From Methylobacter sp. (GTDB lineage: Bacteria; Pseudomonadota; Gammaproteobacteria; Methylococcales; Methylomonadaceae), in NCBI RefSeq assembly GCF_030680395.1, contig NZ_JAUXVR010000007.1, positions 1 through 64,000 on the forward strand: DNA of 64,000 bases, read 5' to 3'. A program made the position numbers and the translations under genes. The notes below the pieces were generated by a model. That model ran no database searches, was not told the origin of the DNA, and worked only from the letters and a program-made list of their open reading frames with translations. Positions 2,477 through 49,630 of the stretch are shown here, in pieces (positions within the stretch are counted from its first letter, which is position 1; each line of letters begins with the position of its first letter).

Positions 2477-3151
2477 TCAGATTATCGGCTGGATCTTCTT
2501 TACAGCATCGTCATCTTGATGTCCGGTTTTATGCTCATACTCGCACAAATCTTCAATGACACAACTTTGGCAGCGCGGCTTTCTGGCAATGCAGGTGTAA
2601 CGACCATGCAAAATCAGTAAATGATGCGCATCTTTCTTATGTTTTTTAGGCACCCATTTATCCAGTTTGCGTTCCACTTCCAGCACATTTTTACCGGGAG
2701 CAATACCGGTACGATTGGCCACTCTGAAGATATGCGTATCCACCGCAATCGTATGCTGTCCAAAAGCAGTATTAAGTATGACGTTGGCGGTTTTTCTGCC
2801 GACTCCCGCCAGCGCCTCCAGCTCTTCCCGCGTTTGAGGCACCTGCCCTGCATGTTTATCAAGCAATTGCCTGCAAAGCGTGATGATATGGCTAGCCTTG
2901 CTGTTAAATAGCCCAATGGTCTTGATGTACTCTTTCAAGCCGGCCTCGCCCAGCGCCAAAACGTCATGAGGGGTGTTAGCGACGGGAAATAATTTTGCGG
3001 TCGCTTTGTTGACGCCTTTATCGGTCGCCTGAGCGGATAAAACGACCGCAATTAACAATTCAAAAGGGCTGGTGTAGTGCAGTTCCGTAGTCGGTTCAGG
3101 TATGGCCGCGGCCAGGCGGTCAAAAATGTCCACGCGTTTTTTTAGGTTCAT
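2477..3151 (-). CDS. nth: endonuclease III (base-excision repair glycosylase/AP lyase)
   Basis: 224 residues, slightly longer than E. coli Nth (211). The helix-hairpin-helix GVGRKTANVIL, with the catalytic Lys nearby, and the aspartate segment AVDTHIFRVANR are present. The C-terminal 4Fe-4S cluster motif C-x6-C-x2-C-x5-C is complete (CIARKPRCQSCVIEDLC). The enzyme removes oxidised pyrimidines from DNA and cuts at the abasic site. It appears to be transcribed alone. The C-terminus is extended by about 15 residues after the cluster. Confidence 0.95.
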   Translation of the reverse strand: MNLKKRVDIFDRLAAAIPEPTTELHYTSPFELLIAVVLSAQATDKGVNKATAKLFPVANTPHDVLALGEAGLKEYIKTIGLFNSKASHIITLCRQLLDKHAGQVPQTREELEALAGVGRKTANVILNTAFGQHTIAVDTHIFRVANRTGIAPGKNVLEVERKLDKWVPKKHKKDAHHLLILHGRYTCIARKPRCQSCVIEDLCEYEHKTGHQDDDAVKKIQPII

Positions 3152-3474
3152 AGTGATATTTGGTTTTACTCAATAATGTGCCACTATTCTCAACATAATC
3201 AAAAATGAAACAAGCTATGGCTGAAAACAAAAAACCGAGGCTGTGTGTTTTTCGACCTTTTGTACAATGAAAATGGATGAAGGTAGCGTATAACGCACAA
3301 TCTGAGTACAACTGTTTTTTGTTTTACGACGAATGAAGCTATTTCCATTAGCCTGAACTGTTATAACGTTTTGTTTTTCATAAAAACTGTGATCTATTTG
3401 GCATAATTAACTTTAAATCATGCAAAACGTTTTTATATGCGGTAGCGTTATAAGTTTTGTCTAAGGAGCGAACA
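3152..3474. other. intergenic region between divergent nth and fapA-like genes
   Basis: 323 bases, AT-rich, presumably holding both divergent promoters. Three related words occur near the fapA-like start: TTATAACGTTTTG (about 3361), CAAAACGTTTTTA (about 3423) and GTTATAAGTTTTG (about 3447). They could be operator half-sites or chance AT-rich similarity. No RNA gene or credible small ORF was seen. Confidence 0.4.
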
Positions 3475-18912: not shown

Positions 18913-19887
18913 TTATCTTAAACGTTGTATCGGATCGTCTGTCGTACTGCATTGAATAAATGCCAGATTCATTTTTTTGGCTATCTGCTCCAGCTGATGC
19001 AGTCGCTGGGTGAAGTGTTGTTGATATTTTAATAGCCGTTGCCGGTCACCGGTATCGATAACCACATCCCGTTTATCGTCGATCGCCGCGCCTGTTCCCG
19101 GCCGGCTTGCGGCATACACACCATCCTTGGCGATAAATCGATATCGGCCTTTTTCCGGCAAATGGCTTTCCAGCGGGTCATAAACAAAAATCAGCACCAC
19201 CTCGCAATGTCGCGACAGCTTTGCCAGATACGATTCAACCTGATCATTAATGCCGCGAAAATCGCTGATAATATAAACCAAACTGCCGGGGCGGGCGTGT
19301 TGCATCAGCCTTGCCAACACATGTTCCAACGTAATCGTTGCTTGATCAAGACGATTATAATCATCTTGATTACTGATTGCGTTTAAAAACCGCAGCACGG
19401 CATGTTTGCCGTTTTGCGGTTTCAATTCACGGCAGACACTACCTGTAAATATCTGCCCGCCAATTCTGTCGCCATGATGTTGGGCTGCCCACGCCAACAA
19501 TCCGGCAAGTTTAGCGGCCAGTACCGATTTAAAAACGCCCCGTGTGGCAAAATGCATGGCAGGGCGGTTATCCACAGAAATAAATACCGGTCTTTCACGT
19601 TCCTCGCGAAACACCTTGGTATGAGTTTCACCGGTACGTGCCGTAACCCGCCAATCAATACTGCGTATGTCATCGCCCGGTTGATAACCTCTGGCTTCTT
19701 CAAACTCCATGCCGCGGCCTTTGAATCGGGATACATAGCCGCCGCTTTGCCCGGAACGTATGGCTGAATGTTTCAGGTTTAACCCGGCGGCCGGTCTCGC
19801 CAGATCGACCAGGGTCTTTAATGACACTGAAATTAATTCGCTGGCAGAGACGTTAGCCGGATCAGCTTGCTTAATAAAAGACATCAA
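18913..19887 (-). CDS. DUF58 domain protein of the moxR-bat operon
   Basis: 324 residues. The DUF58 core is plain: SRFKGRGMEFEEARGYQPGD, then RSIDWRVTARTGETHTKVF and the VWA-like SVDNRPAMHFATRG. DUF58 proteins are soluble partners of MoxR AAA ATPases, thought to help assemble or activate other proteins. The start overlaps the moxR stop by four bases, and the next gene starts right after its stop. Met1 and Met2 are both possible starts. Confidence 0.92.
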   Translation of the reverse strand: MMSFIKQADPANVSASELISVSLKTLVDLARPAAGLNLKHSAIRSGQSGGYVSRFKGRGMEFEEARGYQPGDDIRSIDWRVTARTGETHTKVFREERERPVFISVDNRPAMHFATRGVFKSVLAAKLAGLLAWAAQHHGDRIGGQIFTGSVCRELKPQNGKHAVLRFLNAISNQDDYNRLDQATITLEHVLARLMQHARPGSLVYIISDFRGINDQVESYLAKLSRHCEVVLIFVYDPLESHLPEKGRYRFIAKDGVYAASRPGTGAAIDDKRDVVIDTGDRQRLLKYQQHFTQRLHQLEQIAKKMNLAFIQCSTTDDPIQRLR

Positions 19888-20876
19888 GGCACAGCAACTC
19901 TGGCAATAAGTTCTTTAATAAAATGATCGGTAGTGATGCCTTCCGCTTCGGCTTCGTAAGACAATATCAAGCGATGCCGCAATACGTCAAAAGCCATATC
20001 CTGAATATCTTCCGGACTGACAAAATCGCGTTGCGCTAACCAGGCTTTGGCTCTGGAACAGCGATCCAGCGCTATACTGGCTCTCGGACTTGCACCATAT
20101 TGCAGCCATGCCGCCAGATCCTGTCCGTAAGCAGCAGGATTACGGGTAGCCAAAATAATTTGCAACAAATAGTTTTCAAGACTTTCCGCCATGTGCAAAT
20201 CCAGTACTTCATTGCGCGCGGCAAACAGGGTCTTTTGCTCAATCGGCTCGTATTGGTTACCTGCTTTTATCGAGCCGGAACGGGCTTCTTCTCTGGCCAA
20301 ATGCAAAATGCTTTTTTCATGTTCCGCTTTTGGGTAATCGATTTTTACATGCAGTAAAAATCGATCCAGCTGCGCTTCCGGCAACGGATAAGTGCCTTCC
20401 TGCTCGATAGGGTTTTGCGTTGCCATGACCATGAATAATTTTGGCAACGGATAAGTCGCCTGACCTACGGTTATTTGCCGCTCGGCCATAGCTTCCAATA
20501 AAGCTGCCTGCACTTTCGCCGGCGACCGGTTGATTTCATCGGCCAGGATCAGGTTATGAAACAACGGCCCTTTCTGGAATTCAAAAGTGCCTTGCTGGGG
20601 ACGGTAAATTTCAGTGCCGGTCAAATCGGCGGGCAATAAATCGGGAGTGAACTGCACCCGATGAAAATCGCCTTGTATGCCTTTGCTTAATACATTGATC
20701 GCTCGGGTCTTGGCAAGACCGGGAGCCCCTTCAACCAGGATATGACCATCAGCCAACAAACCGATCAGCATCCGCTCAACCAGCACATCCTGCCCGATAA
20801 TCTCCTGATTAATATAGTTTTTCAACCGCATTAATGCCGGTTGAGCGGTGGTTTTATTGCCGTTTTTTTCTAACAT
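19884..20876 (-). CDS. moxR: MoxR family AAA+ ATPase
   Basis: About 330 residues from the ATG at 20876 (MLEKNGNKTTAQPALMRL); the frame extends to a GTG at 20912. Walker A EGAPGLAKTRAI, Walker B LILADEINRSPAKVQAALLEAM, sensor 1 MATQNPIEQEGTYPLPEAQLDRF and an arginine finger region ASPRASIAL are all present. MoxR ATPases act as chaperones, for example in loading metals or assembling complexes. It is the first gene of the moxR-DUF58-DUF4381-batA-batB/C-batD operon. Its upstream region holds DnaA boxes. Confidence 0.93.
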   Translation of the reverse strand: MLEKNGNKTTAQPALMRLKNYINQEIIGQDVLVERMLIGLLADGHILVEGAPGLAKTRAINVLSKGIQGDFHRVQFTPDLLPADLTGTEIYRPQQGTFEFQKGPLFHNLILADEINRSPAKVQAALLEAMAERQITVGQATYPLPKLFMVMATQNPIEQEGTYPLPEAQLDRFLLHVKIDYPKAEHEKSILHLAREEARSGSIKAGNQYEPIEQKTLFAARNEVLDLHMAESLENYLLQIILATRNPAAYGQDLAAWLQYGASPRASIALDRCSRAKAWLAQRDFVSPEDIQDMAFDVLRHRLILSYEAEAEGITTDHFIKELIARVAVP

Positions 20877-21342
20877 AGTTGTTCTGACATGATGGTGTTT
20901 AGTCTTAAACACGGTACGAAAGCCTCACACATTAAGCGTCAGGCAGGTTTTATTTAACAAATATATTGTCTGCAAATCATCTTTTCAATGAAAGATTACC
21001 TATTTTATACAGTTATGGCTCAAGGCAACATAGAGTAAACCTGTTAAGTAATTCTTAATAAGTTGTGGATGAAGATGTGGATAACGTTGAGGCTTTAGTT
21101 ATCCACAGTCCATACACAAGATCAGGATAATCTTAACTGCATTTTACCATGTTATTCAAGTATCTGATTTTATATGTAAATAAACACTTATCAACAGGTT
21201 TACGCTTAGCTAATAGTAATAATAGGTTTTTAATATCTCTAATTTGTTATTATTATTCCGAACAAAAAAATCTGCCCTAGCCCCAATCACCTATACTCTT
21301 TGCTAACTGTTTATATTTGCGCTGGAGCAACCGAGGAAAAAA
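20877..21342. other. origin-like region: four DnaA boxes plus DnaA-trio-like tract
   Basis: No gene in 466 bases. DnaA boxes (consensus TTATCCACA): 21064-21072 reverse, one mismatch; 21076-21084 reverse, perfect; 21099-21107 forward, perfect; 21188-21196 forward TTATCAACA, one mismatch. Eighteen bases after the last box lies TAGTAATAATAG (21214-21225), then AT-rich sequence to about 21260. The pattern CAACAGGTT-N7-AGCTA-N-TAGTAATAATAG recurs with identical spacing at 44883-44916 before dnaN. This is the layout of a basal unwinding module (DnaA box, then TAG/TAA trios). Origin part, DnaA-titration site or old duplication cannot be decided here. The moxR and DUF4124 promoters must also lie here. 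Confidence 0.7.
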
Positions 21343-21915
21343 ATGAGAATTACACTGCTTATTTTAGGGAGCCTTTTTTCTACCGGTACTGTTGCCGGTA
21401 TTTACAAATGCACCGACATTAATGGCAAGACGGATTACCAATCAAAACCTTGTGACTTGGGACATAAGACCGTGCAAATTAATGTTAAATCAGGACGCTC
21501 TACCGAACTGGACCAGGAAAAACAAAAACAGGATTTAGCAAAAAAAGAACAGGATGAAAATCTTGAGAAAGAACAGATACTGAAAAAACAGGCTCAGTTA
21601 AAACAAGATGCAATGAGTGAAAGCGCAAAAAACCAGTTTCTTATTAAAAATAATCCGGAGAAGTTTTCAGCATTTTCTATCCCGCCTTATGTTCTTGACC
21701 AATTACCGGAATTGGTCAAAGAGCATCAAACCAGACTTCCCGACATTGAACGTTTAAGAAGGCAAGCCGCAGAAAAAGCATTGGCTTCAGGTCAATGCAC
21801 TCGTGTCGAAGCATCTGAATTACATAGTAAAAGCACCAAGAAGACGTTAGTCTTTTCAGTCAGTTGCAGCAGCGGGGAAAATTTCTATTTTACCGAACAG
21901 GAATTAGCCAAATAA
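21343..21915 (+). CDS. DUF4124 domain secreted protein
   Basis: 190 residues. A signal peptide (MRITLLILGSLFSTGTVAG) is followed by the DUF4124 motif IYKCTDINGKTDYQSKPCD with its two Cys. The middle (about 60-100) is a charged K/E/Q helix, probably coiled coil, and a C-terminal pair of Cys (GQCTRVE, FSVSCSS) may form a disulfide. DUF4124 proteins are common, mostly periplasmic and of unknown role. A good ribosome site (GAGG) precedes the ATG. An SDR gene follows after 8 bases, probably co-transcribed. Confidence 0.85.
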   Translation: MRITLLILGSLFSTGTVAGIYKCTDINGKTDYQSKPCDLGHKTVQINVKSGRSTELDQEKQKQDLAKKEQDENLEKEQILKKQAQLKQDAMSESAKNQFLIKNNPEKFSAFSIPPYVLDQLPELVKEHQTRLPDIERLRRQAAEKALASGQCTRVEASELHSKSTKKTLVFSVSCSSGENFYFTEQELAK

Positions 21916-32846: not shown

Positions 32847-34784
32847 TTACTCCACCAACAAACCCCGCAAATTGGCCATAGCCGTAGCCGCAATCTGCCC
32901 TTGCAGATTGATATTGTCGATAATCTCCAACACGGTGCGGGTATCAACAATTGCTTTAACATTGGGATTAACGGCTTTTAAATCATAAACCGCTGCATCA
33001 ATGTCAGCGGCCTTGGTTTGCGCCTCACGAACGGCTTTTTCCTTGATTTTTATCGCCTCTTCGATAGCCGATATTTTTTCCTTATCGGCCTTATCTTTTT
33101 TCAGCGCTTTCAAATCTTCTTTCAGCGGTAGTAATGCTTCAGTGAGGTTTTTAACCTCCTCCAGAAACGGCAGCATATCTGCCTGAGCCTTTGCACGGCG
33201 GGCGGTAAAGTCCATCGTCCAGGAAAAATCGCTGTTCGCTTCAGGAGTTCCATGTTTGGCAAGCAACCTTGCAACCGAAGGGAAAAATTTATCCTGATTG
33301 CCTTCCTGTTCCAGCCATTCAGCGGTCAATGGCCTAGGCAAATCAGCATCATCTAAAATGCCACCTTGCTTATCAAAGCCAAAATACGCCAAAGTCGTCG
33401 GCGTTTTCTTGCCGACCTTAATTTGCGACAAATCGTAATACCAGATGCGTTCGGTTTTTTTGCCCTTGGTAAAAAACAGCAGATTGGTTTTAACTCCGGC
33501 CCCCGCCGTTGAAAACACGCCGCCGGGCAAACTGATAATGCACCACAAATCGCATTCATCGACCAGCTTACGCTTGGTTTCGACAAAAGCGCTTTCATTG
33601 GTTCGGAACAACAAGCCCTCATCCAGCACAATGCCGCAACGCCCGCCTGCTTTGCCGTCCATCGGCATTTTCAGGTCAGCCAAAATATGTTGCAGGAATA
33701 AAACCTGGGTCGAACCGGTCTCAAAACTGTAATTCTTTTGCGCATCAGTGCCTTCCTTGCCGCCAAACGGCGGATTGGTCAGGATCACATCGAAAGTGGC
33801 CGGGGCTTGCTCAAACAAACCGGCATACGTAGGCCGGTTGGTCAGCGTATTGCCGTGCCATAAATTCGGTTGATCTATACCGTGCAAAATCAAATTGGCT
33901 AACGCAATAGGAAAAACCAGGTTCTCTTTTTCCCTACCGAAAAAAGTATCGTGTTTCAGCACATCCAACATCGTAGCGGCGGGCGCATTGCCCAAATTGC
34001 GGCTGATATGCTCAAACGCCACCGCCAAAAACCCGCCGGTGCCGCAACAAGGGTCGTAAACCGTCTCCCCGGCTTGCGGATCGAGAATATGCACCATGCC
34101 TCGAATCACTTCGCGCGGGGTAAAAAACTGGCCGCCGTCGGAGTTTTTCTCGCCCATTTTCAACAGCAAATCTTCATAGACTTGCGACAAGGTAAAAAAG
34201 TGAGTGTCGTCGATATGGTCGATATGGATTTCATGCACCTTGTCGAGAATATCGCGCAGATTGGTTTCACTATCGACCCGCACTTTTTCCACCGCCGTCA
34301 TAATCCGGCCGATTACTCGTTGCTTGCGGCTGGCATTGCTATTGGGCAACTGGCTGATAGGATCAATATCCAAACTGTGCAAATGCGGCAACAGCTCGTT
34401 ATTGATAAACTCGAACAGCTTGCCGTCGCCCGCCGCGTAAAGCTCCTTGCGCTTCCAGCCGATAGCTTGTTCTTCCGTATCCTCTTTATCGGCAAACGGC
34501 GCGGCCCAATCCTGCCAACGGTACGGCGCAGTCAAGGCCGGTGCATAATCGTTACCCAAAGCCTCGGCTTCTTCCCGCGCCTTTTGCTCTTGAGCATCCA
34601 GAATGCGCAAAAACAGGATCCAGGTCAATTCCGGCACATACTGCAAGGCGCTGGCGCAATTGGAGCGGCGCATCACATCGCAAATGGCTTTGACAAATGA
34701 GGATAGCGATTGCGTGGAAGCGATGGACTTGGGCGATTTGCCTTTTTTCGCTGTTTTTATCGTGTTGTCCAACTTGTTCTTCAT
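32847..34784 (-). CDS. hsdM: type I restriction-modification DNA methyltransferase HsdM
   Basis: 645 residues. An N-terminal helical HsdM_N domain with MRRSNCASALQYVPELTWILFLRILD, then the methylase: motif I VYDPCCGTGGFLAVAFEHIS and motif IV ILTNPPFGGKEG (NPPF, adenine N6 methylation). The C-terminal coiled coil (about 560-610, K/E/A-rich) probably contacts HsdS. It is the last gene of the operon hsdR-hsdS-(RAYT)-hsdM. The gap to hsdS is filled by REPs and a transposase, so its co-transcription with hsdR/S may be disturbed. Confidence 0.95.
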   Translation of the reverse strand: MKNKLDNTIKTAKKGKSPKSIASTQSLSSFVKAICDVMRRSNCASALQYVPELTWILFLRILDAQEQKAREEAEALGNDYAPALTAPYRWQDWAAPFADKEDTEEQAIGWKRKELYAAGDGKLFEFINNELLPHLHSLDIDPISQLPNSNASRKQRVIGRIMTAVEKVRVDSETNLRDILDKVHEIHIDHIDDTHFFTLSQVYEDLLLKMGEKNSDGGQFFTPREVIRGMVHILDPQAGETVYDPCCGTGGFLAVAFEHISRNLGNAPAATMLDVLKHDTFFGREKENLVFPIALANLILHGIDQPNLWHGNTLTNRPTYAGLFEQAPATFDVILTNPPFGGKEGTDAQKNYSFETGSTQVLFLQHILADLKMPMDGKAGGRCGIVLDEGLLFRTNESAFVETKRKLVDECDLWCIISLPGGVFSTAGAGVKTNLLFFTKGKKTERIWYYDLSQIKVGKKTPTTLAYFGFDKQGGILDDADLPRPLTAEWLEQEGNQDKFFPSVARLLAKHGTPEANSDFSWTMDFTARRAKAQADMLPFLEEVKNLTEALLPLKEDLKALKKDKADKEKISAIEEAIKIKEKAVREAQTKAADIDAAVYDLKAVNPNVKAIVDTRTVLEIIDNINLQGQIAATAMANLRGLLVE

Positions 34785-34800
34785 AATTGATGATAATTTC

Positions 34801-34823
34801 GTAGGAGCGGGCCATGCCCGCGA
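34801..34823. repeat. REP unit upstream of hsdM
   Basis: GTAGGAGCGGGCCATGCCCG followed by CGA: a GCGGGC/GCCCGC hairpin with a GTAGGA lead. It is the same unit as at 35445, 35586, 35631, 36122 and 36167. It lies 17 bases before the hsdM start and in inverted orientation to the REP at 35445, so the two REPs bracket the RAYT gene. Confidence 0.88.
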
Positions 34824-34871
34824 AAATAATATTTAAATAACCTGAAATTCGAGAGCTCATATTTTAATTTC

Positions 34872-34901
34872 GACCATTACGAGGACATCCTCGTAATGGT
34901 C
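34872..34901. repeat. perfect 14-base inverted repeat between RAYT gene and hsdM
   Basis: GACCATTACGAGGA (34872-34885) and TCCTCGTAATGGTC (34888-34901) pair perfectly around a 2-base gap. It lies between the RAYT stop and the REP before hsdM. There is no T-run on the minus-strand side, so a terminator role is uncertain. Confidence 0.75.
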
Positions 34902-34939
34902 TTAAATCACCTGATTAAAACCACGTTTGTGACTAACAA

Positions 34940-35491
34940 TCAAACCCAAATCGCATTCCAAAACGGATAATCCCCTACCCGTTGAACCAGCCCCGCCCGC
35001 AAAGGATTGGCAATAATGTATCGAGCGATATTGAGTAAATCCTCCTCGGCGCGTAAGGCGTGATCATGATACCCCGGGTCCCAGAGCGTCCCGCGCCGTT
35101 CCAGAACACAATTCGCCAATCTTGAGCTGGACGATTTCAGTCGATTCACGACAATGCCCAAGTTATCTTGAATGCCCAAACCAACCAGCCAATGCGCATG
35201 ATCCGGCATCAGAACCCAAGCAAGTATTCGGGCATCGCCAAGAATTTCGTTGTTTTCAAAGCACCGGGCTGCGGCGCAACCGGCGTTAAATTCATCAAAA
35301 AAACGTTGCCGATTAAGTGTTGTAGCGGTTATCAAATAAACGTGGTTGGGCAAAGACACCCTTCCCTTGCGCAAAGCCTGCTGTCCGGGTCGATTCTTTT
35401 GTGGGAACGGGGCGCGCCCTCGATTATTACCGACCGTAATCTGTTCGCGGGCATGGCCCGCTCCTACAATAAATTTATTTGAACATGGCAT
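34940..35491 (-). CDS. REP-associated tyrosine transposase (RAYT)
   Basis: Up to 183 residues. Core RAYT (Y1_Tnp, IS200-like) features: KGRVSLPNHVYLITATT, the HUH pair MPDHAHWLVG, and the catalytic-Tyr region IARYIIANPLRAGLV. RAYTs cut and move single-stranded REP hairpins. REP units of the matching family flank it on both sides (34801 and 35445). Residues 9-16 (VGAGHARE) of the longest frame are encoded by the REP itself, so the true start may be further in, though AAGGAG precedes the ATG at 35491. It separates hsdS from hsdM. Confidence 0.9.
   Translation of the reverse strand: MPCSNKFIVGAGHAREQITVGNNRGRAPFPQKNRPGQQALRKGRVSLPNHVYLITATTLNRQRFFDEFNAGCAAARCFENNEILGDARILAWVLMPDHAHWLVGLGIQDNLGIVVNRLKSSSSRLANCVLERRGTLWDPGYHDHALRAEEDLLNIARYIIANPLRAGLVQRVGDYPFWNAIWV
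35445..35467. repeat. REP unit at the RAYT 5' end
   Basis: TCGCGGGCATGGCCCGCTCC then TAC: the inverse-orientation REP, matching the unit at 34801 including the CATG loop centre. It overlaps the first codons of the longest RAYT reading frame. Confidence 0.88.
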
Positions 35492-35585
35492 TCTTACTCC
35501 TTCTCAATGACTTGAGTCGGTAAGTCTTCTCAGAAGGTTTGTTGAGATTATTCTGCTGCATATTGAGCTGCCAAGGTTCTGTCCT

Positions 35586-35653
35586 GTAGGAGTGGGCCGT
35601 GCCCGCGAATGGGGCTAGGCATGACTCAGATCGCGGGCACGGCCCGCTCCTAC
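35586..35653. repeat. BIME: two inverted REP units between hsdS and RAYT gene
   Basis: A forward REP at 35586-35608 and a reverse REP at 35631-35653 are separated by 22 bases. Both have GTG/CAC loop centres, like the BIME inside hsdS (36122-36189), which has the same 68-base length and a closely similar spacer. It lies just downstream of the hsdS stop. Confidence 0.9.
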
Positions 35654-35679
35654 AACGAATTTATTGACACATCGCATTC

Positions 35680-36912
35680 TTATTTCTGCTCAAAAGCTTT
35701 GGCGAGTAAGCGTTCAGGGATTTTATTAAGCTCATTCAACTGTTCTTGCATCGCTGATTTAACCGACTTTAACGTTGCCAAGGCTTTAGACACCCTGAGC
35801 TGTTCTTGATAAGGCGGCAGCAAAATCGAACCTTCCGCCAGCCGATTAAACAACATTCGTTCCCGTACCGCGCCGCGCGCCAATGAATTGATGCATTGCT
35901 CGCCATAAGGCGACCTGAGCCAATAATAAAACCAGCGCGAATCGACCAGCCCGGCTTTGCCTTGCAAGGCGACATAATCCGGGCTGGTGATTCCGGGTTC
36001 ATCGTCGTCATCGACAAAGGCAATCGAGCCGATCAAGATACGCATCGGGTTATAAAAAACCGTGCCGCAAAATACCGGCTTGTAGCGTTGCGGCTGTTTG
36101 CCCGGCGGTTCTCTCGTCGTCGTAGGAGCGGGCCGTGCCCGCGATTGGGCTTCAACGTGACTCAAATCGCGGGCACGGCCCGCTCCTACGGTTTTAGCTG
36201 CGGCTAAGCCGCCACGGGTTGCACCCAATACCGGGTAATCCGCCCAGGTTTCGCCTATGCCTTTTTTGACTTCTGCCAACACCTCGCCCAAACGGGTTTC
36301 GGTGACCGGCGATTGTTCAATGCTTTCGCGGATATAAGCATTCGCCAGATTGACGATTTCCTGTTGTTGTAATTCTAAGGCTTTGCGGGCGGTTTCTACT
36401 TCGGCGAGTTGGGCTTTAAGTTTAGTGGTTATTTGGCACTGTTCTTCAATATCGGGAATTACTAATTCTTGATTTAAGTATTCCTTCATCTGCAAATTTC
36501 TAATTCCCGTCGTAGCAGTTTGAAATTTTTCAGTCTGTCCGCTCCAATGAACATTTAGTAGTCTTAGTAACAAATATTCAGGTTCAACAACGCTTTTTTT
36601 AACTCTTAAACACGAAATAAAATTACCACAAATAAATCTCCCTTCCTCTTTGAAAATCGCTACTCTCCCTACTGGCTGTTTTTCACCACCCCCTGACCTT
36701 TCAAGTAAAATATCATTCAGAAAAAGCTTTTTCTTCTCGTAAATCACATCTGGAATATCCAACAATGCTTGGTTCTTTAAAGCTAATTCTCCTGAATTTA
36801 GAAAGTTTGTAGACCTCAATACTGAAACAGCGGTTGCCTGATCTATTGCCGATTCGCCCCACGCTCCAGCGTCCCATGATTCAAGTAAATCTAAAAGCTT
36901 GAGCTTATTCAT
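35680..36912 (-). CDS. hsdS: type I restriction specificity subunit HsdS with in-frame BIME
   Basis: 410 residues. Two target-recognition halves are each followed by a conserved helical segment: ELVIPDIEEQCQITTKLKAQLAEVE in the middle and SILLPPYQEQLRVSKALATLKS at the end. HsdS reads the split DNA target for HsdM and HsdR. Residues about 242-264 of the second recognition domain (TVGAGRARDL to SRARPAPT) are encoded by a 68-base BIME at 36122-36189, with the frame kept open. It overlaps hsdR by four bases. Whether the protein still recognises its target is uncertain. Confidence 0.9.
   Translation of the reverse strand: MNKLKLLDLLESWDAGAWGESAIDQATAVSVLRSTNFLNSGELALKNQALLDIPDVIYEKKKLFLNDILLERSGGGEKQPVGRVAIFKEEGRFICGNFISCLRVKKSVVEPEYLLLRLLNVHWSGQTEKFQTATTGIRNLQMKEYLNQELVIPDIEEQCQITTKLKAQLAEVETARKALELQQQEIVNLANAYIRESIEQSPVTETRLGEVLAEVKKGIGETWADYPVLGATRGGLAAAKTVGAGRARDLSHVEAQSRARPAPTTTREPPGKQPQRYKPVFCGTVFYNPMRILIGSIAFVDDDDEPGITSPDYVALQGKAGLVDSRWFYYWLRSPYGEQCINSLARGAVRERMLFNRLAEGSILLPPYQEQLRVSKALATLKSVKSAMQEQLNELNKIPERLLAKAFEQK
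36122..36189. repeat. BIME inserted in the hsdS coding sequence
   Basis: A forward REP (36122-36144, GTAGGAGCGGGCCGTGCCCG then CGA) and a reverse REP (36167-36189) with a 22-base spacer, the same architecture as the BIME at 35586-35653. It lies wholly inside the open hsdS frame and adds Gly/Ala/Arg/Pro-rich residues. Confidence 0.92.
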
Positions 36913-39311
36913 ATCCCAAATAACCTTCCTTTAGCTTCCAATATAACCGCACCCGGTTGTCCCCATTTTTTCAATGCCGCCAATCCCCCAGCCCGGCTGA
37001 TTTCCGGCACTTGCCAGAGCGAGTCAGATTCCAATGCCTCGGTGCCGCCCAAGCCAAACTGATGACCGAAGCCTTTCAGCACAACCGCAGTATCGCTCGG
37101 CATGTCTTCGAACCAGGGTAGATTCCGGTCGAGATAACCTTGGCCGCGCTCCTGCCGTTTCAAGGCTTGGGCGCGATAGCCGTGGTGGGCGAACATGTCG
37201 TAATAATCAAAATCCTGCATTTCTTCCAGTTCCCGTAAGACTTCGGGCGAGTAGTTTTCGCCCAGCAAATGATCGATCAAGTCGCGGCGTTTTTTGTTTT
37301 CTATCCACAGTTGCCGGAAATCCTGCAAGTTGCCCGCTTCGCGTAGCACCTGTTGCAGCATTTCCCGACGGTATTCTTCTATCGGGATTTTCACATCCCG
37401 GCCTTCGCGGCGGGTCAGGATAAATCGGCCTTCGGAGTTGACGCTGACAGTTTGCCCGTCAATTTGAATCACCGGCGGTTCGTCTCCTCCCTCGCCACCA
37501 TCCCCGCCGTCTTCGCCACCGCCGCCGGTTTTCTTTCTACCTGAACTGTGCGCGGTAATGAAATCGGTGCCGAACAAATCGGTTACGCCGGTGTAGTCGT
37601 ACAGCCAGAATTTGTATTTTTGTGTGACTTCGTCGATGCGTGTGCCGCGTCCGAGCATTTGGTAAAACAGGATGCTGGATTCGAGATAACGAAAAAACAC
37701 CACCGCATTGAGCCGTTCTATATCGACGCCGGTCGCCAACAAATCGACGGTACAGGCGATAAAGGCCCGTTCGCCGGAGCCGCGCATCGGTTCGATCATC
37801 TCGCGCCCGCCGTTAGCGGTGCCCATGCATTTGAACGCGTAATGTTCTTTGGCGGTGCGGCCCTGTTGTTTGCACCATTGGCTGTAAAGGTTGTTCATCT
37901 GCATCGCTACACGATCGGCGTGGATTTCGCGGGTGCAGAAAATAATCGCTTTTTGCTCGGGACCGCCGTGCAGGCAAAGCTGCTTGAACAAATCCTCGCA
38001 CATGGCCGCAATGCGTTCCGGCATCAGTAGTTGGCTGTCGAAATGCCGGGACGTGTATTGGTCTTTGATTTCTTCTTGCCTGATTTCTCTGCCGGTTTTG
38101 GCATCAATTGGGTTGGCTTTGAGCACTTCGTCGCTGGTAAAAGTTTTGCCGTCTATCGAGGCCTTGCGTTTGACGATTTCGCAGGCGGCCAGATACCCGT
38201 CTTCTTGGGCTTGGATCAGGTTGTATTCGTAAACCGGTTCGCCAAAATACTTTAGGTTGTTGGCGGTGATCAGGGCATCATCTTTGTTTTGCGTTTTAGA
38301 TTCGCGCAGTTGTCGGGGCGTGGCGGTCAAGCCAATCTGCACCGCATTGGGATTGCGCAGTAACACTTCCGACCAACGGCCCCAGGCGGAACGATGACAT
38401 TCGTCAATGATAATCATGCTGAAAGCATCGGGAGGGTAATGTTCGCTAAGAAAGCTGGTTGTGTCATTGTCTTCGTCATCCAGACCTAAAGTTTGATAAG
38501 TGGCGATATGAATCCGGGCATTTTTTGCGCTGTTTTCCCCTTTGCTGTTAGTAACGATACGAGCATTGTCACCGAAGACTGCTTTGAGTTTGTTGTAACC
38601 CTGTTCGCGTAGTTCGTCCCGATCGCAAAGAAATAAGGCCGGTTTAGGCAAACGCTGAGCTTGATGCAAGCGCCACAACAGGTTTGCCGCAATGACGGTT
38701 TTACCGGCCCCGGTGGCTAATGACAACAACACTCGACTGGGCTGCCCATTTTGTTCGCAACGCAGAATTTTTTCAAAACAGGCGCGAATCGCGGCATCCT
38801 GATAATAACGGGCTTTAGGATAAGCCGGACTGTCGGCCATGAATAACAAGGCCGATTCGGGTTTGCCAATATCAATTCCCGTATCGTTGGCATAACGTCG
38901 GGTTAAGTCATCGTGGCTGGGAAAATGGTCTTTGAGTGAATGCGGCCCGGCCTGCAAGCCGCTGATTTTATGGTATTCGCCGTACAAATGGCCGTTGGTG
39001 GCAAACACATACTGAACGTTAAAGCGGCTGCATTCGGAATAACCTTTGGCTTGCTGCATGCCTTTGAGCGGGTCTTCCGATTGTTTTTTGGCTTCCAATA
39101 CGCCGACCGGTAACGGCTTAGGCATGTCGCCTGCTTGTACGCAAAGCAGGTAATCGGTGCGGCCGCCGCCTGCGCGCCGACGGCCTTTATGGCCGATGGC
39201 TTCTACCGGCGCAGGCGTTTCAAGTTTGAGTTTGGAATGATCGTCATACCCTTTTTCGCGAAGTACCGGATCAATCAGGTAATAGCGGGTTTCTTGTTCG
39301 TTATAGCTCAT
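36909..39311 (-). CDS. hsdR: type I restriction endonuclease subunit HsdR (EcoEI-like)
   Basis: 800 residues. The N-terminal PD-(D/E)xK nuclease is visible as GRTDYLLC, then VGVLEAKKQSEDPLKGMQQA (D and ExK). The SF2 helicase motor has Walker A LATGAGKTVIAANLLWRLHQ and IIIDECHRSAWGRW (DECH), SAT-like LTATPRQL, and the motif VI region QMLGRGTRID. A G/E/D-rich linker near 590-610 (GGGGEDGGDGGEGGDE) precedes the EcoEI_R C-terminal domain that joins the MTase. First gene of the operon. An intact frame suggests the nuclease is functional. Confidence 0.95.
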   Translation of the reverse strand: MSYNEQETRYYLIDPVLREKGYDDHSKLKLETPAPVEAIGHKGRRRAGGGRTDYLLCVQAGDMPKPLPVGVLEAKKQSEDPLKGMQQAKGYSECSRFNVQYVFATNGHLYGEYHKISGLQAGPHSLKDHFPSHDDLTRRYANDTGIDIGKPESALLFMADSPAYPKARYYQDAAIRACFEKILRCEQNGQPSRVLLSLATGAGKTVIAANLLWRLHQAQRLPKPALFLCDRDELREQGYNKLKAVFGDNARIVTNSKGENSAKNARIHIATYQTLGLDDEDNDTTSFLSEHYPPDAFSMIIIDECHRSAWGRWSEVLLRNPNAVQIGLTATPRQLRESKTQNKDDALITANNLKYFGEPVYEYNLIQAQEDGYLAACEIVKRKASIDGKTFTSDEVLKANPIDAKTGREIRQEEIKDQYTSRHFDSQLLMPERIAAMCEDLFKQLCLHGGPEQKAIIFCTREIHADRVAMQMNNLYSQWCKQQGRTAKEHYAFKCMGTANGGREMIEPMRGSGERAFIACTVDLLATGVDIERLNAVVFFRYLESSILFYQMLGRGTRIDEVTQKYKFWLYDYTGVTDLFGTDFITAHSSGRKKTGGGGEDGGDGGEGGDEPPVIQIDGQTVSVNSEGRFILTRREGRDVKIPIEEYRREMLQQVLREAGNLQDFRQLWIENKKRRDLIDHLLGENYSPEVLRELEEMQDFDYYDMFAHHGYRAQALKRQERGQGYLDRNLPWFEDMPSDTAVVLKGFGHQFGLGGTEALESDSLWQVPEISRAGGLAALKKWGQPGAVILEAKGRLFGI

Positions 39312-43257: not shown

Positions 43258-43425
43258 TTTACTTAAGGCCTGATCGGATGAGTGTTAACAAAAACAGATA
43301 AAAAAGACAGCGGATGATAAAATAAACCATTAGGCCTGTCAATTCTGTAGCGCAATGTTTTATTGCTGTATAGTGATAAAAAGCAAAATTACACTATTAA
43401 TTTTAATCAACTTTTTACTATTTCA

Positions 43426-44742
43426 ATGAGCTCAATTTGGAACAACTGCCTTTCTAAACTTGAAAATGAAATTTCAGGTTCTGACTTCAGTACATGGATA
43501 CGGCCCCTTCAGGCCATAGAAAGCGATGAACAAATAAAATTATTAGCGCCCAACCGTTTTGTACTGGACTGGGTTAAAGAGCATCACTTTGCAAAAATTG
43601 AAGAGACCATTCATGAGTTTTCTAACGGCACATTAAATTTGAGCCTGGAAATCGGTTCCAGAAATTCGTCCGTTGCAACGGCTGCAAAAGTAGCCAAGCC
43701 TGCCGGAACTCAAAAAACCAGCCCCAACTTCCTGAATAAGGCATTTACTTTCGACAGTTTTGTTGAAGGTAAATCCAATCAGTTGGCAAGGGCTGCTTCA
43801 ATGCAGGTTTCCGAGAACATCGGCAAGGCTTATAACCCATTACTTATTTACGGCAGTTCAGGTTTGGGTAAAACCCACATGATGCACGCAATAGGCAATG
43901 CCGTTTTACAAAAAAATCCTTCCGCGACCGTCGTTTATCTGCACTCTGAAAAATTCGTTCAGGATATGGTTAAGGCATTGCAGCAAAATTCGATCAATGC
44001 GTTCAAGGAGTTTTATCGGGGCGTTGATGTGCTGCTAATTGACGACATTCAATTTTTTGCCGGCAAGGAACGCTCGCAGGAAGAGTTCTTTCATACGTTC
44101 AATACGCTGTTGGAAAAGAAACATCAGGTGATTTTAACCTGCGACAAATATCCCAAAGAAATCATAGGTCTTGAAGACCGCTTAAAATCACGGTTTGGCT
44201 GGGGACTTCCTGTTCTAATCGAGCCCCCGGATATGGAAACCAGAGCCGCTATTTTAATGAAGAAGGCGGCTTTTGTTAATATTGAACTAGCCCAGGATGT
44301 GGCTTTTTTTATCGCTAAAAGAATCCCCTCCAACGTTCGGGATCTGGAAGGCGCTCTAAGACGAGTCATTGCCAACGCACAGTTTACCGGTCGTGAAATT
44401 ACTATCGAATTCACCAAGGAAGCGCTGCATGATTTAATTTCCTTGCAGGACAAACTCGTTAATATCGACAATATCCAGAAAACGGTTGCCGAATATTTTA
44501 AAATTCGAGTTGCCGATTTGTCGTCTAAAAATAGAAAACAATCGATTACCCGACCGCGACAAATGGCTATGTGCCTGGCCAGAGAACTGACATCGCACAG
44601 CTTTCCTGAAATTGGCGATGCATTTGGCGGTCGTGATCATACAACAGTAATGAACGCCTGCAAACGAATTGCCGAGCTAAAAGAAGCTGACAACAAGATT
44701 GCTGAAGATTATTCGAACCTGTTGAGAACCCTGTCACATTGA
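43426..44742 (+). CDS. dnaA: chromosomal replication initiator DnaA
   Basis: 438 residues from [16 protein letters not shown]; the longer frame from 43363 adds a non-DnaA leader and is rejected. Domain I (1-75), Pro/Lys/Ala linker (about 80-105), AAA+ domain III with Walker [15 protein letters not shown] and Walker [21 protein letters not shown], and DNA-binding domain IV with [15 protein letters not shown]. It opens the origin by binding DnaA boxes. Box-like sites follow in the dnaN upstream region and another set lies at 21 kb. Confidence 0.98.
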
Positions 44743-44754
44743 CGGGGAACAACC

Positions 44755-44916
44755 TGTGGATAAAATGTACTTTTACTAACATCATTTAGTTAACTACAAT
44801 CCGTACACGTTAAACCAGCACCCTTAACCACATTGTTTATAACAACACAACTAATTGATTATTAAGGATAAAAATCTGTTTTCAACAGGTTCCTTTTAAG
44901 CTAGTAGTAATAATAG
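44755..44916. other. oriC-like module between dnaA and dnaN
   Basis: DnaA-box-like sites: TGTGGATAA at 44755-44763 (perfect, reverse), TTAACCACA at 44824-44832 (one mismatch) and TTTTCAACA at 44879-44887 (two mismatches). The last is followed after AGGTT-N7-AGCTA by TAGTAATAATAG (44905-44916), a DnaA-trio-like tract, then an AT-rich stretch up to the dnaN ATG. The coding-strand bias flips at rpmH/dnaA, which fits an origin here. Spacing equals that at 21192-21225. Confidence 0.72.
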
Positions 44917-44930
44917 AAAAATATTCTTTT

Positions 44931-46031
44931 ATGAAATTTATTATTAATAGAGAAGAAATCCTGGCCCCTTTGCAGCAAATAGTCAGCGTGATAGAGAAAA
45001 GGCAAACGATGCCTATTCTTTCCAATGTCCTAATGGTTATTGATAAAGATGAACTTATTTTGACGGGTACTGATCTGGAAATTCAGATCATCGCTAAAAT
45101 CAATATCGCAACAGCTACGCCGGGGTCGATTACGGTACCGGCCAGAAAATTCCTGGATATTTGCAGGCTTCTACCTAACGGAGCCGAAATAAAATTTGAG
45201 TTGCAGGACGATAAAGTAAAAATCGCCTCCAGTCGCAGCCGTTTTTCCTTGAGTTGTTTGCCTGCAGATAATTATCCTGAATTTGCTGAATCCGAATTAG
45301 AGAATCATTTGTTCATCAATGCCGGCAAATTTAAAAAAGCACTCGATAAGACGGTTTTTTGCATGGCCAATCAGGATGTTCGTTATTACCTGAACGGCTT
45401 ATTGCTTAATGTATCCAACAGTAAGTTGAAACTGGTTGCATCGGATGGACACCGCTTGTCCATTTATGAGGATAATCTTGATCAGGCGACCGGTTTTGAA
45501 GCCCGAATTATTTTGCCCAGAAAAGGCGTTCTTGAACTGAGTCGCTTGCTGGACGACTCGGAAGCTGAATTGAAAGTTGAGTTTTCCAGCAACAATATTA
45601 GAATTTTTATCAAGAACCTGATTTTCTCGGCGAAACTGGTGGACTCTAAATATCCTGATTTCGGCAAAGTTTTCCAGCAAGAATTTTTTAACCAAATCCA
45701 TATTCAAAAGCAGATATTGAAAGAAGCATTGACTCGTGTCGCTATCTTGTCGAATGAAAAATTCAAGGGCGTGACCTTTGACATTAAATCTGACAGCCTG
45801 AAAATCAGCACTCATAATCCCGAGCATGATGAAGCTGAGGAAGAACTGTTTATTGAATACACGGGTGAACCGTTAACGATTGCTTTTAATGCGCAATATT
45901 TACTGGATGCTGTTTCAAACCTGGATTCCGAGCTTGCGGTTCTGACCATTGCGAGCAATGCCAGCAGTTGTTTTATAGATGAGCCTGGTGATTGCGGGTA
46001 TAAGTTTATTGTTATGCCCATGAGACTGTAA
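44931..46031 (+). CDS. dnaN: DNA polymerase III beta sliding clamp
   Basis: 366 residues, exactly the E. coli length. Three clamp repeats are visible; MKFIINREEILAPLQQIVSVIEKRQTMPILSN opens and VIMPMRL-like FIVMPMRL closes the protein. It encircles DNA and tethers polymerase III. It follows the origin-like region and is 10 bases before recF. Confidence 0.98.
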   Translation: MKFIINREEILAPLQQIVSVIEKRQTMPILSNVLMVIDKDELILTGTDLEIQIIAKINIATATPGSITVPARKFLDICRLLPNGAEIKFELQDDKVKIASSRSRFSLSCLPADNYPEFAESELENHLFINAGKFKKALDKTVFCMANQDVRYYLNGLLLNVSNSKLKLVASDGHRLSIYEDNLDQATGFEARIILPRKGVLELSRLLDDSEAELKVEFSSNNIRIFIKNLIFSAKLVDSKYPDFGKVFQQEFFNQIHIQKQILKEALTRVAILSNEKFKGVTFDIKSDSLKISTHNPEHDEAEEELFIEYTGEPLTIAFNAQYLLDAVSNLDSELAVLTIASNASSCFIDEPGDCGYKFIVMPMRL

Positions 46032-46041
46032 TATTGCAGTT

Positions 46042-49630
<3,589 letters not shown>

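Follow-up and report, generated by a model that had tools for sequence, protein, structure and literature searches.

The window, by which we mean the whole stretch of DNA analysed here, covers the 64 kb at the start of a 452,780-base contig of Methylobacter sp., a methanotroph of the Methylococcales whose genome comprises 4,355,590 bases in 49 contigs. An oriC-type module (21061-21231, plus strand) lies between moxR, an AAA_3 ATPase gene, on its left (19884-20912, minus strand; Pfam AAA_3, 3.4e-63) and a DUF4124 gene on its right (21343-21915, plus strand; Pfam DUF4124, 5.7e-05). The zone joining the module to moxR (20991-21060, minus strand), which has a mean identity to the window of 0.82 across 18 other genomes of the genus, is probably the moxR promoter.

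We scanned for DnaA boxes with the consensus TTWTNCACA and for IHF sites with WATCAANNNNTTR. Two minus-strand DnaA boxes, one with a single mismatch (TCATCCACA, 21064-21072) and one perfect (21076-21084), are followed by a perfect plus-strand box (21099-21107) that lies 89 bp ahead of the DUE-side, R1-like box (21188-21196, plus strand), which has one mismatch (TTATCAACA). A preliminary description had reported two perfect and two one-mismatch boxes within 133 bases at this place, together with a spaced string repeated before dnaN, and as an observation it is confirmed. Two more one-mismatch boxes occur in the moxR gap, at 21003 and 21175. Between the upstream boxes and the DUE-side box is an IHF-like site with one mismatch to the consensus (21157-21169, minus strand), and beyond the DUE-side box are a CTAATA/DnaA-trio tract (TAATAGTAATAATAG, 21211-21225, plus strand) and an AT-rich unwinding stretch (21207-21256), a predicted DUE that by nearest-neighbour energy is among the weakest 0.09% of window 50-mers. 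The layout is of the E. coli type: opposed DnaA boxes, IHF-like site, DUE-side box, CTAATA, DnaA-trio and AT-rich stretch.

A second oriC-type module (44753-44922, plus strand) occupies the gap of about 191 bp between dnaA (43363-44742, plus strand; Pfam Bac_DnaA, 4e-72) and the ORF at 44931-46031 (plus strand), which we take to be dnaN from its place after dnaA and its translation, and which we used as a query. The consensus scan found a perfect box at 44755-44763 (minus strand). A one-mismatch box at 44824-44832 (plus strand) is 55 bp ahead of the DUE-side, R1-like box, the position of R5M in E. coli, and the DUE-side box itself has one mismatch (44879-44887, plus strand). Here the IHF-like site is perfect (44848-44860, minus strand). 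The trio tract (TAGTAGTAATAATAG, 44902-44916, plus strand) is accompanied by an AT-rich stretch at 44901-44950 that is the weakest or nearly the weakest 50-mer of the window (fraction as weak, 0.0000). With one perfect and three one-mismatch boxes, the dnaA-dnaN gap matches the consensus less well than the moxR gap, as the preliminary description had noted. About 2.2 kb from this module, at the recF-gyrB boundary, the palindrome TGTTCCACGTGGAACA occurs twice (47081-47096 and 47119-47134); we take these copies, which have two mismatches to the consensus, to be parS-like.

The modules share one orientation and are 23.7 kb apart. This figure had been given as the distance to dnaA; it is correct from module to module, whereas the start of the dnaA ORF is 22.2 kb away. 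The DNA between them contains a type I restriction-modification set (32847-39311), in which the N6 methylase was identified by Pfam and the specificity and restriction genes were assigned from position and translation, and a small protein (34940-35491) that, we presume, resembles a REP-associated transposase. The type I set and the transposase-like gene may account for part of the long inter-module distance.

Both modules carry the string CAACAGGTT-N7-AGCTA-N-TAGTAATAATAG, at 21192-21225 and 44883-44916, on the plus strand and with identical spacing. With up to three mismatches permitted, these are the only two sites in the whole 4,355,590-base genome, and no match was found in any of 100 shuffles; occurrence at many unrelated sites, which had been named as an outcome that would speak against a second origin-like module, is not what the genome contains. 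A profile search (profile R1, described below) of the same genome gave 112.8 bits at the moxR-side module, its top place, and 108.8 bits at the dnaN-side module; the next match, at 17.3 bits, overlaps the moxR-side module on the opposite strand, and the one after it scored 13.7. When the window's genome and 60 relatives were scanned, 19 of the 61 had the string with at most three mismatches, every one of the same genus. Within the loci returned it lies upstream of moxR in G001, G007, G008, G011, G019 and G021 besides the window, and before dnaN in the others. The relatives' strings differ from the window's by one to three letters while the spacing is constant, and an exact-letter scan of the named genome collection found no spaced string. 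The letter-for-letter identity of the two strings in the window is thus partly chance.

Conservation and paralogy of the two modules

Profile R1 was built from 43 modules of both classes, mostly from the window's genus. These remained of 54 candidate rows once three moxR modules (G004, G027 and G030) and eight dnaN-gap rows (G016, G024, G025, G027, G028, G031, G034 and G043) had been set aside. Scores inside the genus depend on the profile's own training rows, and faint second modules in distant genomes may escape it. Anchors for the modules of G006, G025, G027, G030 and G036 were placed by hand. The region ahead of moxR was inspected in 41 genomes, a set of 30 and a further 11.

By profile R1, the moxR module is present in 21 of the 23 genomes of the genus (all except G009 and G012), which is the comparison of the locus among relatives that the preliminary description had called for. 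It was also found in 5 of 14 other family genera examined (G025, G027, G030, G032 and G036); its absence by R1 at moxR in the remaining nine (G023, G024, G026, G028, G029, G031, G033, G034 and G035) counts against the paired-origin reading that we develop below. Boxes with at most one mismatch recur at fixed offsets from the DUE-side box, forming the box cluster of an oriC: at -124 in 18, at -112 in 21, at -89 in 20 and at 0 in 20 of the 21 genus modules. The R5M position (-55) is weak in this class (1 of 21 perfect, none with one mismatch, 13 with two). An IHF-like site lies between the DUE-side and upstream boxes at one offset, -30 from the base preceding the DUE-side box, with at most one mismatch in 19 of 22 moxR modules and 22 of 28 dnaN-gap modules, a count in which G025, misanchored in both classes, is scored as a miss. 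The DUE-side box, trio and AT-rich element were likewise found, by sequence and predicted stability.

Across the 18 other genus genomes, identity to the window was 0.89 to 0.98 in the four boxes and 0.90 in the trio, 0.56 in the spacer between boxes and trio, and 0.42 in the DUF4124 leader. The boxes and trio stand out in this comparison; the module as a whole (0.73) does not, since on the moxR side the moxR leader stands at 0.69 and the zone that joins the module to it at 0.82.

Boxes with at most one mismatch take up 1.46% of places in moxR modules and 0.105% in the window. When the window was simulated 40 times with a first-order Markov model, one simulation gave a cluster of comparable box strength, so the moxR-gap boxes by themselves are suggestive; it is the spaced string and its conservation that lead us to accept the second module as real. 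That simulated cluster, and the acquired-looking genes between the modules, such as the type I N6 methylase, are what one would cite for a chance cluster or a functionless relic of an inserted or duplicated block. However, 21 of the 23 genus genomes and five other genera keep the offsets, boxes and trio, and the division into two classes is old, and we regard this explanation as extremely improbable. The idea of an inserted relic, raised in the preliminary description, finds no support in a moxR-module pairing that is present in several genera.

The boxes of the dnaA-dnaN gap fall at places of the moxR class (-124, -89, -55 and 0), with their strengths reversed: in the dnaN class the -55 box is strong (at most one mismatch in 18 of 20) and the -89 box weak (4 of 19), whereas in the moxR class -89 is strong and -55 weak. 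When the two class consensuses were compared without gaps and with the DUE-side box and trio excluded, register 0 was the best of 81 offsets (z 7.6). The 43 modules of both classes align over 173 columns with hardly a gap. In the module tree, whose bootstrap is unsettled and which has two long-branch rows, a single branch (100/100) parts the 23 rows of the moxR class, which come from four genera, from the 20 of the dnaN class, which come from two, and G036, of another genus, contributes one row to each side. Because that one branch parts the classes and G036 is represented in both, the split predates those genera, and the two copies have stayed distinct without homogenisation. Judged from their sequences, the two modules are ancient collinear paralogues, although the shared register could conceivably stem from convergence under the same mechanical demands.

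The profile also found the oriC of E. coli (NC_000913.3, 3925744-3925975), with 22.2 bits and an E value of 4.7e-8 in 501 bases. Once turned so that its DUE is at the right, E. coli oriC has its R1-type box, R5M at -55, CTAATA after R1 and AT-rich stretch in columns that match those of the methanotroph modules, the -55 position being strong in the dnaN class and weak in the moxR class. Its IHF column, 30 bp ahead of R1, is shared with both methanotroph classes; it has two mismatches to the consensus and was missed by our one-mismatch scan. There are differences: E. coli has a single oriC, between mnmG and mioC and with GATC sites, whereas here there are two modules, at moxR and dnaN; the methanotroph modules have a TAG/TAA trio, and their R2 and right-half layout is unlike that of E. 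coli. By its anatomy, the element in the moxR gap is strongly supported as an oriC-like module, and it is probably a complete one of the gammaproteobacterial (E. coli) kind. The suggestion of a second oriC-like module is thereby borne out by conservation, architecture, paralogy with the dnaN module and the profile match to E. coli oriC. The earlier interpretation is supported in part, since a split origin is disfavoured and an inserted relic finds no support.

Distribution in the family and loss of either copy

Profile R1 matches 128 of 151 genomes of the family. At least 43 have two places, at least 35 on one contig and at least 32 outside the genus; these are lower bounds, with two places counted as separate if they lay on different contigs or, on a shared contig, more than 1 kb from each other. 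Across the Gammaproteobacteria, 50 of 115 genomes, the window's included, have a match, and the other 49 are single-locus. A second separate R1 locus was found in none of the 114 gammaproteobacteria other than the window's, where the profile is less sensitive and where nine genomes with match pairs that overlap or lie no more than about 130 bp apart were scored as having one locus each. Among 80 named moxR loci, eight have an R1 match immediately upstream of moxR.

Within the genus, both modules score above 75 bits in 18 of 23 genomes. G009 and G012, which are sister genomes in a protein tree (3 of its 37 rows, G003, G014 and G026, have under half of the columns), have the dnaN module only, and G010, sister to both, has its modules 67 kb apart. 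The converse state is found in G016 (90.1 bits at moxR and a decayed 35.1 at dnaN) and in G004 (78.6 bits at moxR, where the match ends at the contig end, and a decayed 23.7 at dnaN). G030, of another genus and assembled in one 2.97-Mb contig, has seven perfect boxes at moxR and an 80-bp dnaA-dnaN gap without boxes. G014 has a moxR module of 89.0 bits, and there is no dnaA match in its assembly.

The distance between modules ranges from less than 2 kb to 67 kb, and their relative orientation is inverted in G001 and G010. In G117 (Methylobacter luteus), where they are 13.4 kb apart, the order is moxR, module, a gene that presumably resembles a transporter, DUF4124, SDR, mnmE, yidC, rnpA, dnaA, module, dnaN; G074 has the same gene order and a distance of 9.4 kb. 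In Ca. Methylobacter oryzae KRF1 the modules are separated by 15.1 kb. In genus g26 (G061, G087, G109 and G126) the modules sit directly on either side of dnaA. In G105 and G136 of the Methylomonas group (group g12, with G033), the second module is 7.3 and 5 kb upstream of dnaA, the G105 distance assuming a circular join, and the gene beside it is one that we take to resemble rmuC.

Several loci have other arrangements. G007 (L076) has, beside its own moxR module, a 531-bp dnaA-dnaN gap with two R1 matches 340 bp apart (2878-3046 and 3218-3386), a tandem module duplication. Tandem modules about 400 bp apart also precede dnaN in G165 (L303) and G122 (L304), both of the Methylomonas group; the 9 to 10 kb inspected at these loci contained no dnaA. 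In G128 (L294) and G161 (L307), both of group g30, the module pair lies on either side of a 471-aa gene or after it; the 12 kb read in G128 contained no dnaA, dnaN or moxR, and the G161 locus contained dnaN and no dnaA. The moxR gap of G009 (L049) has, at the expected place of the module, an inverted repeat (GTAGAGACGCGA...TCGCGTCTCTAC) that may represent a small mobile element. One MAG contig (L260) bears the title Klebsiella pneumoniae, which looks doubtful, and encodes a MoxR 67% identical to the methanotroph's.

Could the two modules be halves of one bipartite origin that cooperate over 24 kb, as the preliminary description had considered? DnaA-box clusters on both sides of dnaA recall known bipartite origins, and in g26 the modules flank dnaA directly. 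Yet each module has a DUE-side box, IHF-like site, trio and AT-rich stretch of its own rather than a share in a single unwinding element. Moreover, the separation varies from under 2 kb to 67 kb, the orientation is inverted in G001 and G010, and either module can be lost or decay alone, as the single-module relatives G009, G012 and G030 illustrate. A split origin therefore seems to us very unlikely.

The reading that we favour, and consider reasonably probable, is that the moxR-gap and dnaN modules are two autonomous and redundant oriC-type modules, ancient paralogues now 23.7 kb apart. Redundancy is suggested because either module has been lost while the other stays (G009 and G012 as against G016, G004 and G030). 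At each module, DnaA would load onto the box array and IHF would introduce a bend between the R1-like box and those upstream of it; a DnaA filament would extend from the R1-like box onto the trio, and the AT-rich stretch would then open for the helicase to load. These steps follow the accounts of oriC (DnaA boxes, IHF bend, filament to trio, DUE opening, helicase) given in PMC5742627 and PMC6669920. The anatomy, the uniqueness in the genome, the paralogy and its age, and the loss in either direction are established here; DnaA and IHF binding, unwinding, firing and the share of firing between modules are what we infer for this organism. In genomes that keep the pair, each module can probably initiate replication.

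Strand skew and the firing module

Skew is negative to the left of the moxR module and positive to the right of the dnaN module in all 11 genomes, and in all 11 the inter-module DNA has a value between those of the two arms (the right arm of G011 being just 3.3 kb). Such intermediate skew counts in favour of two redundant modules, but it could instead come from later insertions between them. Five genomes (G008, G011, G015, G036 and G117) have their raw minimum no more than 4 kb from moxR, and two have it no more than 5.3 kb from dnaN (G010, where it is 5.2 kb past the dnaN module, and G132); in four it is between the modules. A cumulative skew had been proposed as a check of the moxR locus: in the window's genome the arms do change sign across the region, but the minimum falls 16.3 kb to the right of the moxR module and 7.3 kb to the left of the dnaN module.

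We also fitted third-position skew with replication side and gene strand. By this strand-corrected fit, the interval belongs with the moxR-origin side in nine of the 11 genomes, G010 and G132 being opposite. The pooled value was 0.50 (bootstrap 0.14 to 0.96), and it dropped from 0.64 to 0.37 with longer arms. Control segments had a mean of -0.50 for 45 in the left arm (sd 0.97, 29% above 0) and 1.11 for 113 in the right arm (sd 0.65). Because the controls scatter this widely and related genomes are not independent, we treat the moxR-side skew as a lean only. In G030, which has the moxR module alone, the deepest point of the 400 kb examined is at 838 kb, with a second low at about 913 kb and moxR at 909 kb; this is ambiguous and at face value does not favour a moxR origin. 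The skew does not settle which module fires.

This lean, together with the better boxes at moxR and the dnaN module that has decayed in G016 and G004 and gone from G030, would agree with a moxR module acting as the sole working oriC, remote from dnaA as oriC is in E. coli, and with a dnaN module that is an ex-origin, regulating dnaA-dnaN or slowly decaying. The skew lean in 9 of 11 genomes makes the moxR module a possible main origin, as had been proposed. On the other hand, the R1 box, trio and spacing of the dnaN module are kept in most of the genus, and it is the sole module in G009 and G012; the raw minimum in the window's genome is nearer dnaN, G010 and G132 point the opposite way, the controls scatter and G030 is ambiguous. 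We think a sole moxR origin rather unlikely.

The reverse assignment would make the dnaN module the sole working oriC; the moxR module would then be either an origin that lies dormant or a datA/DARS-type control site that binds DnaA. An oriC commonly lies next to dnaA, the raw minimum is closer to the dnaN module in G000, G019, G021, G010 and G132, the parS-like pair at 47081 and 47119 is 2.2 kb from the dnaN module, and G009 and G012 manage without the moxR module. E. coli datA and DARS2, as described in PMC5742627, likewise combine DnaA boxes with IHF, and the moxR layout is compatible with such a control site because boxes and an IHF-like site are present. But a titration or reactivation site would have no need of the DUE-side box, the in-register trio or the AT-rich stretch of the moxR module, and the datA/DARS structures that PMC5742627 describes include no trio and AT-rich stretch in register, which weighs against the titration or reactivation site considered in the preliminary description. 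In addition, the moxR module is kept in G016, G004 and G030 despite a decayed or absent dnaN module, and the raw minimum is within 4 kb of moxR in the five genomes named above. A sole dnaN origin is, in our view, quite unlikely.

Returning to two redundant modules, one may speculate further that Methylobacter and much of its family start replication from two DnaA-dependent oriC modules, and that origins move via a two-origin state in which one is later dropped. We offer this wider statement tentatively and hold it to be possible but doubtful.

Comparison with known origins

Bacterial chromosomes are usually described with one oriC. A family in which oriC paralogues persist and species drop different copies would be a natural series of one- and two-origin chromosomes, and it would make testable how origins move, how two oriCs operate under one DnaA cycle and how a back-up origin is kept up. 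It also means that calling oriC by proximity to dnaA may mislead in the family of Methylobacter. In the literature covered, which omits most subscription journals, we came upon no account of paired oriCs in Methylobacter or elsewhere in its family.

In the basal unwinding system of Bacillus subtilis, as described in PMC6669920, a DnaA box leads into a series of trios alongside AT-rich DNA, as is the case here; B. subtilis has one origin per chromosome, in the incC region, and the methanotroph pair adds IHF-like sites and duplication. The bipartite oriCs of Helicobacter pylori and B. subtilis are presented in PMC6742236 as two box clusters around dnaA that act as one origin, whereas the methanotroph clusters each have their own trio and either can be lost.

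Two origins on one chromosome have precedents. Pseudomonas aeruginosa has two autonomously replicating DnaA-type origins, of which only one is essential in the laboratory (PMC4403523); the methanotroph pair differs in showing paralogy, a conserved register and two-way loss across many species. Vibrio cholerae NSCV1, according to the account in PMC6284228, has a natural single chromosome on which marker frequency shows two origins to be active; one is DnaA-type and the other plasmid-type (RctB), and they lie more than 1 Mb apart as a result of chromosome fusion, while the methanotroph pair consists of two DnaA-type paralogues close together and is known from sequence. The putative double origins of DoriC (Gao 2015; PMC4403523) are predicted second origins on a single bacterial chromosome, called from boxes, neighbour genes and skew in single strains, whereas in the methanotrophs the anatomy is conserved over many genomes. 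The kind of oriC described here is already known; as paralogues that are paired, conserved and lost in both directions, those of this family appear to be new.
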